From Acetobacteraceae bacterium (GTDB lineage: Bacteria > Pseudomonadota > Alphaproteobacteria > Acetobacterales > Acetobacteraceae), in the NCBI GenBank assembly GCA_947371015.1, contig CANBNK010000016.1, positions 1 through 64,000 on the forward strand: a stretch of 64,000 nt of DNA. Reading direction: 5' to 3'. Both the position numbers and the translations under genes were made by a program. Positions 5,886-55,788 of the stretch are shown here, piece after piece; the first letter of the stretch is position 1, and the number at the start of each line of letters is the position of its first letter. The notes under the pieces are model-generated. The model saw nothing but the letters and a program-made list of their open reading frames with translations, made no database searches and was not told where the DNA came from.

Positions 5886-5931
5886 GAGCCTGATCGGCTT
5901 AGGCGAAATCGCCGTAAGCCGTGAATCAGTC
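5886..5931. repeat. Type A palindromic repeat, second near-identical copy
   Basis: matches 2681-2725 with a single internal difference. Confidence 0.85.
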
Positions 5932-6050: not shown

Positions 6051-6056
6051 AGGCAA

Positions 6057-6202
6057 ATGAAGTTCCGACCTGCGGCCCGCCGCTTGCGGGCCGAGCCGCC
6101 GAATGGCCGCCGCGGCTTATGCCGCGTCACGCCAGCGGCGTGCCAATGCACGACGCGATTGAGGGCGCGCGAAGGTGAAGCCTTCGTGCGCCTGGTATCA
6201 GT
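6057..6202 (+). repeat. Type B modular multi-hairpin repeat, copy B1
   Basis: ATGAAGTTCCGACCTGCGGCCCGCCGCTTGCGGGCCG...GGTATCAGT; long near-identical blocks shared with 20354 and 55618. Confidence 0.88.
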
Positions 6203-20013: not shown

Positions 20014-20312
20014 CCCTGCGCTGGGACGTGCTGGCGGCCATCATCGGCATGGCGCTGGCGACCTATCTGTGCCGCGCCGGCGGCTACGCGATATTGCGCG
20101 CCAGCCGGCCGCCGCGCTTCGTGCAGGCCATGCTGCAGCACCTGCCGGGCTGCATCTTCGTCGCCTTCCTGGCGCCTGCCCTGGCCAGCGGCGGGCCGGA
20201 TACCTGGGTGGCTTCCTTGGTGACGCTGGCGGTGCAGGTGGTGTTCCGCAAGCTGGCGCTGTCCATCCTCACCGGCGTCGGCACCGTCTGGGCCTTGCAG
20301 GCGCTGGCCTGA
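20010..20312 (+). CDS. azlD: AzlD domain-containing protein
   Basis: small multi-TM protein, ATGA overlap with azlC; YLCRAGGYAILR. Confidence 0.82.
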   Translation: MTLRWDVLAAIIGMALATYLCRAGGYAILRASRPPRFVQAMLQHLPGCIFVAFLAPALASGGPDTWVASLVTLAVQVVFRKLALSILTGVGTVWALQALA

Positions 20313-20353
20313 GCACAAGCGGCCGGCCGTTGTCGAGCGCCTGATCCGCGCAG

Positions 20354-20576
20354 ATGAAGTTCCGACCTGCGGCCCGCCGCTTGCGGGCCGAGCCGCCGAA
20401 TGGCGTCCGCGGCCTGTGCCTCGTCACGCGTCCGCGTGCTGGCGCACGTCACGCGTCCGCGTGCTGGCGCACGACCCCAAGGGCCGCGGAGGCGGCCCGC
20501 GTCAGGCCAGCGGCGTGCCAATGCACGACGCGATTGAGGGCGCGCGAAGGTGAAACCTTCGTGCGTTGAGCATCAG
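20354..20576 (+). repeat. Type B modular multi-hairpin repeat, copy B2
   Basis: same ends and blocks as B1; contains a perfect 25-bp tandem duplication (20423-20447/20448-20472). Confidence 0.88.
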
Positions 20577-21424
20577 TCGCGCGCCGGCAGGCTGCGCAGA
20601 TACGCGACCAGGTCGCGCAACTCGCCCTGGCTCATCCGCGCATAGTAGGCAAAGCCCATCGGCGGCCCCAGCCGGCGGCCATCGGCGGAGAGGCCCTGCG
20701 TCATCGCGCGGGTCACCTGTGCGTCGGTCCAGCCGGCCAGCGCCGCCGGGGTGATGTTGCGCGGCACCGCCGTCCCCCAGGGGCCGTTGATCGGCGGGCC
20801 GCCGGCGCCGGTGCGGCTCCAGTCACGGCCACGCGGCCCCATCGGCGTGTGGCACTCGATGCAATGCCCCAGCGGCCCGGCCAGGTAGGCGCCGCGCGCC
20901 ACCGGGTTGTCCGCTGGCGCGGCCACGCTGGTGATCGGCGGGCCATAGGCCGGCGGCAGCGGCATGCTGTAGCTGCTGCGCGCCACCTGGTTGCGCACCG
21001 GCGGCACGGTGCGCAGATAGGCCACCATCGCCGCCAGGTCGGCATCGCTGACCTGGCGATACTGCTCAATCGGCATCGGCGGGCCCACCAGGGTGCCGTC
21101 GGGCCGCCGCCCCTCGCGGATGGCGCGGCCGATCTGCGCGTCGGTCCAGCGGCCGATGCCGGTCTCGCGGTCCTGGGTGATGTTGGTGGCCACGGCGCGG
21201 AACAGGCCGGGTTCCTCCATCACCTGGCCGCCGGCCAGGGTGCGGCCGGGCAGGTCGGCGCCAGTGGGGCCTTTCTCGGTGTGGCAGTTGCCGCAGCCGG
21301 CGATGCCGTTGACCAGCGCCGCGCCGCGCGTGACCAGCGCCGGGCTGGCCGGCTGCGCTACGGCGCCATGCGTCAGCAGCAATGCCAGGGCAGCCCCCAG
21401 CAAACCCGTCCTGTCCCACCGCAT
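20573..21424 (-). CDS. diheme cytochrome c
   Basis: two CxxCH motifs (CGNCH, CIECH), signal peptide. Confidence 0.92.
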   Translation of the reverse strand: MRWDRTGLLGAALALLLTHGAVAQPASPALVTRGAALVNGIAGCGNCHTEKGPTGADLPGRTLAGGQVMEEPGLFRAVATNITQDRETGIGRWTDAQIGRAIREGRRPDGTLVGPPMPIEQYRQVSDADLAAMVAYLRTVPPVRNQVARSSYSMPLPPAYGPPITSVAAPADNPVARGAYLAGPLGHCIECHTPMGPRGRDWSRTGAGGPPINGPWGTAVPRNITPAALAGWTDAQVTRAMTQGLSADGRRLGPPMGFAYYARMSQGELRDLVAYLRSLPARD

Positions 21425-21510
21425 CGCTGCCTCCCTGGCGCATCATTCCGGGGCAGGAAAGCATGACGTTGCCGATATGGGCAGGCCAGCCGTAGCGGCT
21501 CACTTACCAA

Positions 21511-21710
21511 CGGCACGAGGCTTTGACTCGTGCCGAGGCGCCGAACGGCGCCCGCGGGTCGCGCCCTTGGGCGCGCGGAACCGCGCGACGCCGCGAAGCC
21601 AAGGAAACCGGAGGTTTCCGCGTCACGCTGAAGGCGTGCGTTCCGCATGGGGACTGAGGGTAAGAAAAAGCTGATACCAGCGGTCAAGGAACTTGGCCGC
21701 TGGTATCAGC
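21511..21710 (+). repeat. Type B modular multi-hairpin repeat, divergent copy B3
   Basis: same module order and loops (CCGAA.GGC, CCAAGG..GGAGG, GACTGAGGG, GGTATCAG) with different stem sequences. Confidence 0.7.
21664..21710 (-). terminator. intrinsic terminator downstream of the MscS-family gene
   Basis: on the minus strand GCTGATACCAGCGG-loop-CCGCTGGTATCAGC (14-bp perfect stem) followed by TTTTTCTTA. Confidence 0.85.
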
Positions 21711-21724
21711 CGTGATGGCCGGCG

Positions 21725-24136
21725 CTACATGCCGGTGCTGGCGCTTTCCATCGGGTTCAGCGGGGTCTCCACGTTCAGCCGCGGCGCCGGCGGCGGCAAG
21801 TCTATCCCCGACAGTGCCAGCTCCACCCGGCAGCGCCGGTTGAGCTCGCGCGCCACCAGCCAGCGCTCGCCCGGCAGGGTCCGCGCCCGCACGCGGAACA
21901 CCATGCCGGCGTCGGTCATCTTCTCCATGCCCGCGGCTTCCACCGCGCCGGGCATCCGCTCATGCCATGCGGGTTCGGCGCGCATGCGTTCGGCAATGGC
22001 GCGGAGCGCGGCGATGACCTTGTCCGGGTCCTCCTGGAAGCCGACGGTCACGTCCACCACCGCGTAGCCGTAGTCGCGCGTCATGTTGGTCACGGTGGTC
22101 ACCGCGCTGAACGGCACCCAGTGGATGCTGCCATCCAGCGCCCGCAATTTGATTGAACGGATGGTCAGGTGCTCCACCACGCCGGTGCGGTCGCCCAGGT
22201 TGACCACGTCGCCGACCGCCACGCTGTCCTCCACCAGCAGGAAGATGCCGGTGATGACGTCCTGCACCAGCTTCTGGCTGCCGAAGCCGATGGCCAGGCC
22301 GATGACGCCGGCGCCGGCGATCAGCGGGCCGATGTTGACGCCGAGTTCCTGCAGCACGTTGAACACGATGAAGGCGAAGACGCCGGTGGCCAGGAAGGCG
22401 CGCAGCACCGGCAGCAGGGTGCGCAGCCGCATGCCGCCCTGCGCCTTCTTGCCCGTCGGCAGGCTGTTGGTCAGGTGGGTCTCGATGGCGCTGTTGGCGG
22501 TTTCCCACACCAGCAGGCCGAGGAAGGCGGTGAAGCCGATCGACAGCGCGGTGCCCAGCAGCTTGTGGCCGGGGTGCCCCGGGCGAAACCAGGCCAGGGT
22601 GCGGAAGCCCCATACCTCGGTCAGCAGCACCAGCGCTACCGCCAGCAGCAGCACGGTCCAGCCGATGCGGAAGGGCGGCACATATTGCTTGGCCAGCCGG
22701 TCCAGCCAGGGGGCGCGGCGGGCCACCTGCTCGCCCGGATGCAACAGTCGGCGCAGCAGCCGGCGCATGCCCTCGTCCAGCAGCTTGGCGGCGACGACCA
22801 CCGCCAGTGTCAGCGCGGTGCCGCGCAGCATGTGGGCGAAGCCGCGCTCCACCCCCACCGCCGCCACCGCCCAGCCCACCAGCAGCCAGCCGACCGCCAC
22901 CAGGTGCCACTGCTCCGCCAGCCGGGCGCGCAGGCCGCGCAGCAGCCGGCGGGTGCTGTCGGTGCCTTCCTCGGCGTCCATCGGCGGCGGCCGCAGCAGC
23001 GCCGCCACGCGGGCGCGCTGCTGGCGGATCATCCGCAGCAGCATCAGCGTCACCACCAGCAGGCCAAGTCGCACCAGCGCGCCATGCATGGCCAGCGGCA
23101 TGCCCACCAGCACCGCCAGCTCCGCCAGCGCATAGCCGCCGATACCGGCCATCAGCATGCGCCGCAGCCAGATGATCAGCCAGGCGGCTATGGCATCCGA
23201 GGCCGGCAGCAGCCGCAGGTGGCTGGAGGCGGGGGAGAGCAGCATGCGCCCCAGCGCCAGCACCATGCGGCCGGCGACGTACAGGTTCACCACCATCAGC
23301 ACCACCAGCTGCGCCGCCGGGCCGGGCCGGACGAAGCCGAGCGCGGCGACCACGGCGCCGCCCATCACCAGCATCGGCAGCAGGTCCAGCCCCAGCCGGG
23401 CCACCACCAGCGGCACCCGGCGCAGCCAGGTCCAAACATTGCCATCCGGCGGCGCCAGGCGGTCCAGCCGGCGTGAGGCGCGGCGCAGCAGCCGCACCAG
23501 CAGGAATTCCAGCGCGAGGCCCAGCGCGCCCAGGCTGAACAGGTTCACCAGTGCTTCCAGCAGCCGCTCCTGCTGCGCCGGGTCCCGCCACAGCGCCATC
23601 ATCCCGGCCCAGAGCGCCGGCAGGTCGGCCATGCTGCGCACCGTCTCGATGGCGATGTCGGCGCCGTGCTGAATCTGCTCGCCGAGATCGACCAACAAGC
23701 GGCCGCCCAGCGTGGTGGGGGTGAACATCGCCTCGCTCTCGGCCGCCGGGGCTGCGCCGGCGGCGGCTGGCGGGCCAGGGGTCGGGCCAGGGGTCGGGCC
23801 AGGGGTCGGGCCATGGGGTGGGGCCGATGTCGCGCTGGCGGGTGCGCCAGGGGCGGAGGTGGCGGCCGGGGTCGCACCTGGCGGGCGCGTGGCGGTGCCC
23901 GCCGGTGTCATGGCGCGCTCGGCGGCGGCCAGCGCCTCCACCAGCCGCAGCAGGTCGGCCCGGCGCGCGGGGTCGCGCAGCACCTCCGCCAGGTGTTCCA
24001 GCGTGGCCGAGGTCACCGCCGCCGGGCGCGCCGCGGCAGCCGGTGCGGCGGGCGGGGCGGGTGCCTGCGCCCGGGCCGCCAGGCCACAACCCAGCAGCAG
24101 CGCCAAGACAAGCGGGAGAAAACGGAACGGTCTCAT
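21725..24136 (-). CDS. MscS-family mechanosensitive ion channel (DUF3772-type)
   Basis: signal peptide, many TMs, GAGVIGLAIGFGSQKLVQDVITGIFLLVEDSVAVGDVV pore/beta domain. Confidence 0.9.
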   Translation of the reverse strand: MRPFRFLPLVLALLLGCGLAARAQAPAPPAAPAAAARPAAVTSATLEHLAEVLRDPARRADLLRLVEALAAAERAMTPAGTATRPPGATPAATSAPGAPASATSAPPHGPTPGPTPGPTPGPPAAAGAAPAAESEAMFTPTTLGGRLLVDLGEQIQHGADIAIETVRSMADLPALWAGMMALWRDPAQQERLLEALVNLFSLGALGLALEFLLVRLLRRASRRLDRLAPPDGNVWTWLRRVPLVVARLGLDLLPMLVMGGAVVAALGFVRPGPAAQLVVLMVVNLYVAGRMVLALGRMLLSPASSHLRLLPASDAIAAWLIIWLRRMLMAGIGGYALAELAVLVGMPLAMHGALVRLGLLVVTLMLLRMIRQQRARVAALLRPPPMDAEEGTDSTRRLLRGLRARLAEQWHLVAVGWLLVGWAVAAVGVERGFAHMLRGTALTLAVVVAAKLLDEGMRRLLRRLLHPGEQVARRAPWLDRLAKQYVPPFRIGWTVLLLAVALVLLTEVWGFRTLAWFRPGHPGHKLLGTALSIGFTAFLGLLVWETANSAIETHLTNSLPTGKKAQGGMRLRTLLPVLRAFLATGVFAFIVFNVLQELGVNIGPLIAGAGVIGLAIGFGSQKLVQDVITGIFLLVEDSVAVGDVVNLGDRTGVVEHLTIRSIKLRALDGSIHWVPFSAVTTVTNMTRDYGYAVVDVTVGFQEDPDKVIAALRAIAERMRAEPAWHERMPGAVEAAGMEKMTDAGMVFRVRARTLPGERWLVARELNRRCRVELALSGIDLPPPAPRLNVETPLNPMESASTGM

Positions 24137-37942: not shown

Positions 37943-38050
37943 GCTGCTTTTCGGCCCTCAAGCGCCGGGCGGCCGCATCCGCGGCCTTGGCTTACGCGCC
38001 ACAAGGCGCGACGGCCATTCGGCCTTGCGGCCCGCCTTCGTCGGGCCGGG
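37924..38050 (-). repeat. Type B modular multi-hairpin repeat, inverted copy B4
   Basis: reverse complement reads CGGCCCGACGAAGGCGGGCCGCAAGGCCGAATGGCC...GCGCCTTGTGGCGCG...CCAAGGCCGCGGATGCGGCC...CTTGAGGGCC. Confidence 0.72.
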
Positions 38051-54025: not shown

Positions 54026-54041
54026 GCTATCCTCCGATGCC

Positions 54042-54199
54042 ACTGATTCACCGCCCGCGGCGATTCCGCCTTGGCCGATCAGGCGCTGGTTGGGCGACTG
54101 ATTCACGGCCCACGGCGATTCCGCCTTGGCCGATCAGGCGCTGGTTGAGCGACTGATTCACCGCCCACGGCGATTCCGCCTTGGCCTATCAGGCGCTAA
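54042..54199. repeat. tandem array of three 55-bp Type A palindromic repeats
   Basis: units begin at 54042, 54097, 54152: ACTGATTCAC(C/G)GCCC(G/A)CGGCGATTCCGCCTTGGCC(G/T)ATCAGGCGCT. Confidence 0.95.
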
Positions 54200-54242
54200 G
54201 CCTCCACTGTAGCAACTGCGATACGGCAAAACGGGGGCGGCG

Positions 54243-55567: not shown

Positions 55568-55607
55568 ATCTCCACGCTGATCCCTTTTCGGGCGATCAGC
55601 CCCCTCG

Positions 55608-55788
55608 TACCAAGCAGATGAAGTTCCGACCTGTGGCCCGCCGCTTGCAGGCCGAGCCGCCGAATGGCGGCCGCGGCTTATGCCGCGTCACGCGTCAGCG
55701 TGCCGTCGCACGACGCCAAGGGCCGCGGAGGCGGCCCGCCCGGCGACTGAGGGCGCGCGAAGGTGAAACCTTCGCGCGCTTGGTATCA
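55608..55788 (+). repeat. Type B modular multi-hairpin repeat, copy B6
   Basis: same blocks as B1/B2; 8-bp terminal inverted repeats TACCAAGC (55608-55615)/GCTTGGTA (55778-55785). Confidence 0.88.

Follow-up and report, generated by a model that had tools for sequence, protein, structure and literature searches.

The structured repeat described here is a MITE-like, non-autonomous mobile element with TACC...GGTA ends and TNA target duplications, and it is found across Alphaproteobacteria. Its hairpin stems differ between copies; each stem seems to be exchanged as a whole, through either template switching or conversion over short tracts. Conserved loops and an excess of G-T over A-C combinations in the most variable stem indicate, as far as sequence comparison can, that selection acts on the fold as well. 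On balance, we favor the joint reading that the stems of a MITE-like element change in single events while the fold is kept for the element's own propagation. The copy examined most closely lies in a 64,000-nucleotide stretch of an Acetobacteraceae contig (hereafter the window).

The element is 126–230 bp long and has no coding capacity. In genome G035, twenty near-identical copies, which point to a recent burst, occupy twenty distinct contexts, and their similarity ends at TACC and GGTA. The flanks at 20/20 of these sites are 3-bp TNA sequences with N identical on both sides. In other genomes, the duplication matches in 18 of the 26 copies with recognisable ends, against an expectation of 8.0 from swapping ends among copies. 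Several families of copies carry terminal inverted repeats (TACCAAC...GTTGGTA, TACCAAG...CTTGGTA), and genome G193, with about 150 copies, yields 156 matches to the 5´ end of its element versus 13 for the reversed control pattern. At the mscS–cytochrome c intergenic site, the element is present in G000 and absent at the orthologous site of the sister species G152. The MITE hallmarks of terminal inverted repeats, target-site duplication, orthologous presence/absence and a short, gene-less, multicopy form were all observed. Insertions are found at many sites, often in or adjoining stop codons; a duplicated TAA or TGA restores a stop codon, a possible reason why copies so often sit directly at gene ends. 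Sphingomonadales copies lack TACC ends, and the mobility evidence comes from TACC-ended copies.

Two further sites differ between species. Loci L086 (G015) and L067 (G000) share an orthologous intergenic site, and each has a family member there; the two differ in subtype and point in opposite directions, reflecting either an inversion or two insertion events at this position. Relative to positions 20300–21750 of the window, L115 (G015) lacks the cytochrome c gene and both flanking elements; the gene was possibly lost by deletion between the two elements.

The window copy spans 201 bp on the plus strand (21505–21705), with ends defined on G035 and on copies from other genomes and applied by sequence. 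TCA follows its 3´ end (21706–21708) and recurs at 21500–21502; this target duplication is imperfect because two bases (CT) separate the 5´ TCA from the element. Direct reading of the sequence bears out the first stem of the preliminary description, CGGCACGAG (21511–21519), loop GCTTTGA and CTCGTGCCG (21527–21535), which together form hairpin H1 (21511–21535), also recovered by model alignment and folding. Its second hairpin, GGCGCC-GAAC-GGCGCC at 21537–21552 (H2, supported by sequence, model alignment and covariation), is likewise present and corresponds to GCCGCC-GAAT-GGCGGC in Type B copies. The H3 region (21553–21595, CCGCG...) is lengthened by a 33-nt insert of two more short hairpins, as placed by model alignment. 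The conserved linker AAGCCAA (21596–21602), identified by model alignment and cross-order comparison, leads to hairpin H5 (21603–21619), the most variable stem of the family. H5 had been given as the 18-nt GGAAACC-GGAG-GGTTTCC. The hairpin exists, and its stem is rewritten relative to Type B, but its sequence is GGAAACCGGAGGTTTCC, of 17 nt; this GGAAACC-GGA-GGTTTCC form, read from the sequence and the flank-defined H5 set, pairs either over 7 bp around a GGA loop or over 6 bp around CGGAG. Type B H5 is the 18-nt GGGCCGC-GGAG-GCGGCCC, and the loop common to both is GGA, not GGAG. A CGTC-type hairpin module (21620–21651) stands in place of the GCCCGG of simple copies, as seen by comparison of copies, and is followed by the conserved tail GACTGAGGG (21652–21660; sequence and cross-order comparison) and a terminal hairpin, GCTGATACCAGCGGTCAAG/CTTGGCCGCTGGTATCAGC (21670–21710; sequence and copy comparison). 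All of these features lie on the plus strand. The flanks reported to be kept, CCAAGG (21599–21604), GACTGAGGG and GGTATCAG (21702–21709), are all found. Read on the minus strand, the terminal hairpin is followed by a T run and is predicted to resemble an intrinsic terminator for the mscS gene. The predicted fold of the copy has −109.3 kcal/mol, compared with −85.5 ± 4.7 for 200 dinucleotide shuffles (z = −5.0, 0/200).

The core common to copies comprises, in order, H1, H2, H3, the linker AAGCCAAG, H5 and the tail GCCCGGCGnYTGAGGGC. The H2 loop is GAAT, GAAC, GACC or GACT, and the H5 loop is GGA(T/C/G). In G035, a 126-bp variant without H1 and H2 is present several times; since this variant is itself repeated, the part from H3 to the tail alone seems to be enough for mobility. 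A covariance model built from the core was used for genome searches and gives 44 matches in this genome, including the window copy and most Type B copies. The core is carried by 6/6 genomes examined of the genus, by 22/150 of the bacterial family and, at the level of the class, by 32/387 genomes from ~18 families. An exact-pattern scan of GTDB gives at least 120 stretches, and among the matches listed are Roseomonas, Magnetospirillum, Azospirillum, Nitrospirillum, Terasakiella, Erythrobacter, Qipengyuania, Croceicoccus and Sphingomonas. The loops GAAT/GAAC and GGA, the linker and the tail are kept across alphaproteobacterial orders. A described RNA family was considered and rejected: Rfam gives no match at the gathering threshold, and relaxed thresholds give chance-level matches only. 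Tandem core arrays of two to three units of ~90–134 bp occur in other Alphaproteobacteria (L223, L322, L191, L331). At L166, L135 and L209 (Sphingomonadales and others), H3 is CCCGAGC-TTAT-GCGAGG, which could form tandem G-A pairs within the stem, an RNA-like trait.

The homology of the window copy to Type B copies is confirmed by the core model, which finds the window copy at 60.1 bits (E 6.8e-10) together with the B copies in the same search. The label of divergent Type B copy does not hold, for the window copy has close relatives of its own. A DNA search with it gives six further near full-length matches in the genome (E < 1e-30, 71–85% identity) plus partial ones, and a B copy and the window copy, used in turn as queries against the genome, each recover a separate set of relatives. 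By sequence similarity, the window copy is thus assigned to its own subfamily, and Type B is another. DNA search and core model place Type B copies on the plus strand at 20344–20574 (two CGTC-type modules, downstream of the cytochrome c gene), 6053–6202 (without H5) and 55607–55786. The strongest core match of the window (37954–38048, minus strand; 81.9 bits, E 5.1e-14) is a family member of neither subfamily. CGTC-type modules (CGTCACGC...GCGTGCNNNNGCACGACG), which resemble CGTC-tagged REPs, lie inside the element or replace parts of it, sometimes in tandem (20428–20476 and 21620–21651 in the window; L042; L050). Another short palindromic repeat (2674–2729, 5888–5931 and 54039–54203) has ends like TTAGAGCCTGATCGG... 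and carries GATTC, a GANTC site; it is probably a separate MITE. Its ends may resemble those of IS5 insertion sequences of the IS1031 group.

The proposal that loops stay fixed while stems vary and remain paired holds in substance across a structural alignment of copies. Among 40 sequences, 98% of 744 cells are paired, and 215 cells are changed on both sides, whereas shuffles have 78. Covariation is scored at 0.706, compared with 0.156 for shuffles and 0.05–0.10 for slid structures. Because these rows were chosen partly for pairing in H2 and H3, H5 was also taken by its exact flanks only; the 102 distinct inserts are 93–94% Watson-Crick, versus 51–59% with arms exchanged between copies. A larger flank-based H5 set holds 26 G-T pairs versus 6 A-C (p = 5e-4), and a hand count restricted to exact-pattern-scan copies among the matches listed, with no pairing model, gives 16 versus 5. 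Were both strands to count, or neither, the two numbers should be equal; the G-T excess therefore argues that the fold of one strand matters. It is also present in antisense copies (9 versus 2).

How stems change is best seen at orthologous sites, where a small set of seven locus pairs between sister species was found by flank similarity and then aligned; their flanks are mostly 86–95% identical. Twelve pairs changed on both sides with pairing kept, no double change broke pairing, and seven changes were one-sided, two to wobble and five to broken pairs. The possibility that pairing changes are no commoner than independent substitutions is not borne out: from the one-sided rate, we estimate ~0.1 double changes, compared with the 12 seen. 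At L068/L394, three pairs of H5 are swapped (GGCCGC versus GCCGCC); its loop GGAT, the stems of H2 and H3, and the tail are identical. At L027/L386, two pairs of H5 and one of H3 are swapped, and the loops are the same. L382/L379 differ by three H5 pairs, and L071/L390 by most of H5, including the loop. L025/L372 is static, and L046/L362 shows one-sided decay; such decay is left unrepaired in some copies (L046, L071). The balance of 12 kept, none broken and seven one-sided changes suggests that stems are replaced as units.

Stepwise compensatory substitution under structural selection alone, with no rewriting, is favoured by the G-T intermediates that occur (the 26 in H5, plus two one-sided changes to wobble at the orthologous sites) and by the frequency of arms that differ by a single substitution. 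Against this, double changes outnumber one-sided ones, a hairpin can differ by two or three pairs in a core that is otherwise nearly unchanged, and 10/12 of the two-sided changes are G-C/C-G swaps, which lack a wobble intermediate, so that a stepwise route must cross a mismatch. We regard this explanation as distinctly improbable. Template switching or arm-to-arm correction alone, with the fold not selected, accords with both-arm changes without intermediates and with the terminal hairpin, which varies in stem and loop and remains near perfect. Under quasipalindrome correction, a template switch is predicted to alter the two arms of a hairpin at once; this accounts for the two-arm change but not for the loops, linker and tail conserved across orders, nor for the one-strand signal, since a strand-symmetric correction would not be expected to separate G-T from A-C. 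As a sole explanation, template switching or arm-to-arm correction is very unlikely.

The preliminary description had named two alternatives, structural selection and a mechanism rewriting both arms; each is independently supported, and neither suffices alone. In the joint reading, a stem would change in a single event, through template switching within the hairpin or through short-tract gene conversion from another genomic copy. Selection would purge copies with a broken single-strand fold. Conversion between copies, absent from the earlier account, is as likely as template switching. A potential donor allele, GGCCGC-GGAT-GCGGCC, is present at five loci of the window's genome, and the sharing of stem alleles within versus between genomes (p = 0.08) is at most suggestive of conversion. 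Four-gamete sets among hairpin alleles number 14, 9 and 8 for three hairpin pairs; alleles reassort among copies, and each hairpin therefore behaves as an exchangeable unit, a pattern in which G/C-only stems allow some chance recurrence.

Gene context was scored over 260 copies with genes called by a custom codon-usage caller. Copies lie between convergent genes (73), codirectional antisense (70), codirectional sense (54) and between divergent genes (24). The core could be a cis-acting RNA, such as a 3´-UTR stabiliser, a terminator or insulator, or a leader regulator, spread by an ordinary MITE. Its position at gene 3´ ends and the avoidance of divergent promoter regions fit such a role, as does GAGGG, a ribosome-binding-site-like motif 7–9 bp before the predicted start codon in several codirectional copies (upstream of an obgE-like start at L328). 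A function in the neighbouring mRNA would, however, predict an orientation preference, which is absent between codirectional genes, and the one-strand G-T excess extends to antisense copies; the neighbours of copies in the window are unrelated, ordinary genes. A cis-acting core is thus unlikely, and individual copies may have been co-opted by the host, for example through GAGGG before a start codon. Near-neutral orientation and the protection of only one strand's fold, regardless of orientation to genes, indicate instead that the sense-strand fold probably serves the element's own propagation. Less firmly, the fold might be needed as a folded transcript or single-stranded DNA that is recognised by a mobilising enzyme supplied in trans, and it would not serve the control of neighbouring genes.

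A search for this enzyme or for an autonomous partner at the DDE_Tnp_1 loci of three carriers found no insertion sequence with the element's ends, and a search of 1.76 Mb of loci for a gene between matching ends with duplications gave nothing above chance. Ordinary REP/RAYT-type palindromes moved by a Y1 transposase would match the varied-stem palindromic repeats at gene 3´ ends and the CGTC-like modules of some copies. A RAYT/Y1 mobiliser was rejected: Y1_Tnp is missing from 11/15 carrier genomes, including this one, there is no GTAG tag, and the element makes TNA target duplications, which the Y1 mechanism is not known to produce. We give this origin very little credence. Tentatively, the element could be a class-wide bacterial counterpart of SINEs, gene-less and mobilised in trans by an enzyme that recognises one strand's fold as RNA or ssDNA; such an enzyme would read nothing but the fold and the loops, leaving each stem free to vary as a unit. 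If the mobilising enzyme does read the fold, this would be a new mobilisation route.

Mobile structured repeats have so far been known mostly as families of single species groups. A core common to orders, followed at orthologous sites, makes two-arm hairpin differences visible between sister species, and the choice between stepwise and single-event compensatory change, which is usually untestable, becomes measurable by comparison of close strains. As a caution, covariation of such strength would pass as a regulatory RNA in RNA-discovery pipelines.

The gene-less structured mobile repeat is a known kind, represented by bcr1–bcr18, BOX/RUP, CIR and REPs. A description of this element was not found in the literature examined, which covers few subscription journals, and its class-wide core with unit-wise stem replacement is apparently undescribed there. 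The bcr1–bcr18 repeats of Bacillus cereus are short, gene-less and mobile, with 10–130 copies of bcr1 per genome; they are structured on transcription, and a dedicated transposase is not known (PMC3446304, PMC6542083). The element shares their short, gene-less, mobile and structured nature. The bcr repeats belong to one species group and carry a TTTAT motif, whereas the element has TACC/GGTA ends, TNA duplications and a core across alphaproteobacterial orders. Pneumococcal BOX and RUP are mobile repeats of modular build; they have inverted ends and target duplications, and their RNA is predicted to fold tightly (PMC3049150). The element resembles them in all of these respects, but their sequences and hosts are different, and a covarying class-wide core is not reported for them (PMC3049150). 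CIR repeats of Caulobacter and Brucella (Chen and Shapiro 2003, as summarised in PMC2229807) are ~110-bp intergenic sequences with conserved predicted folds, which that summary defines by their GANTC sites and by a pair of long arms plus a linker. Like CIR as summarised there, the element is a structured intergenic repeat of Alphaproteobacteria; it is set apart by that description rather than by sequence, GANTC being rare in its core. Membership in CIR was rejected, as GANTC occurs in the core in 3/232 and 11/232 and in the 5´ region in 41/232 versus 35 shuffled. CGTC- and GTAG-tagged REPs are single tagged hairpins of 20–40 bp with varied stems near gene 3´ ends, and Acetobacteraceae are listed as lacking CGTC REPs (PMC3733652). 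The element shares with REPs the varied-stem palindromes near gene 3´ ends and, inside some copies, a CGTC-like module; unlike them, it is built of several hairpins and has inverted ends and target duplications.
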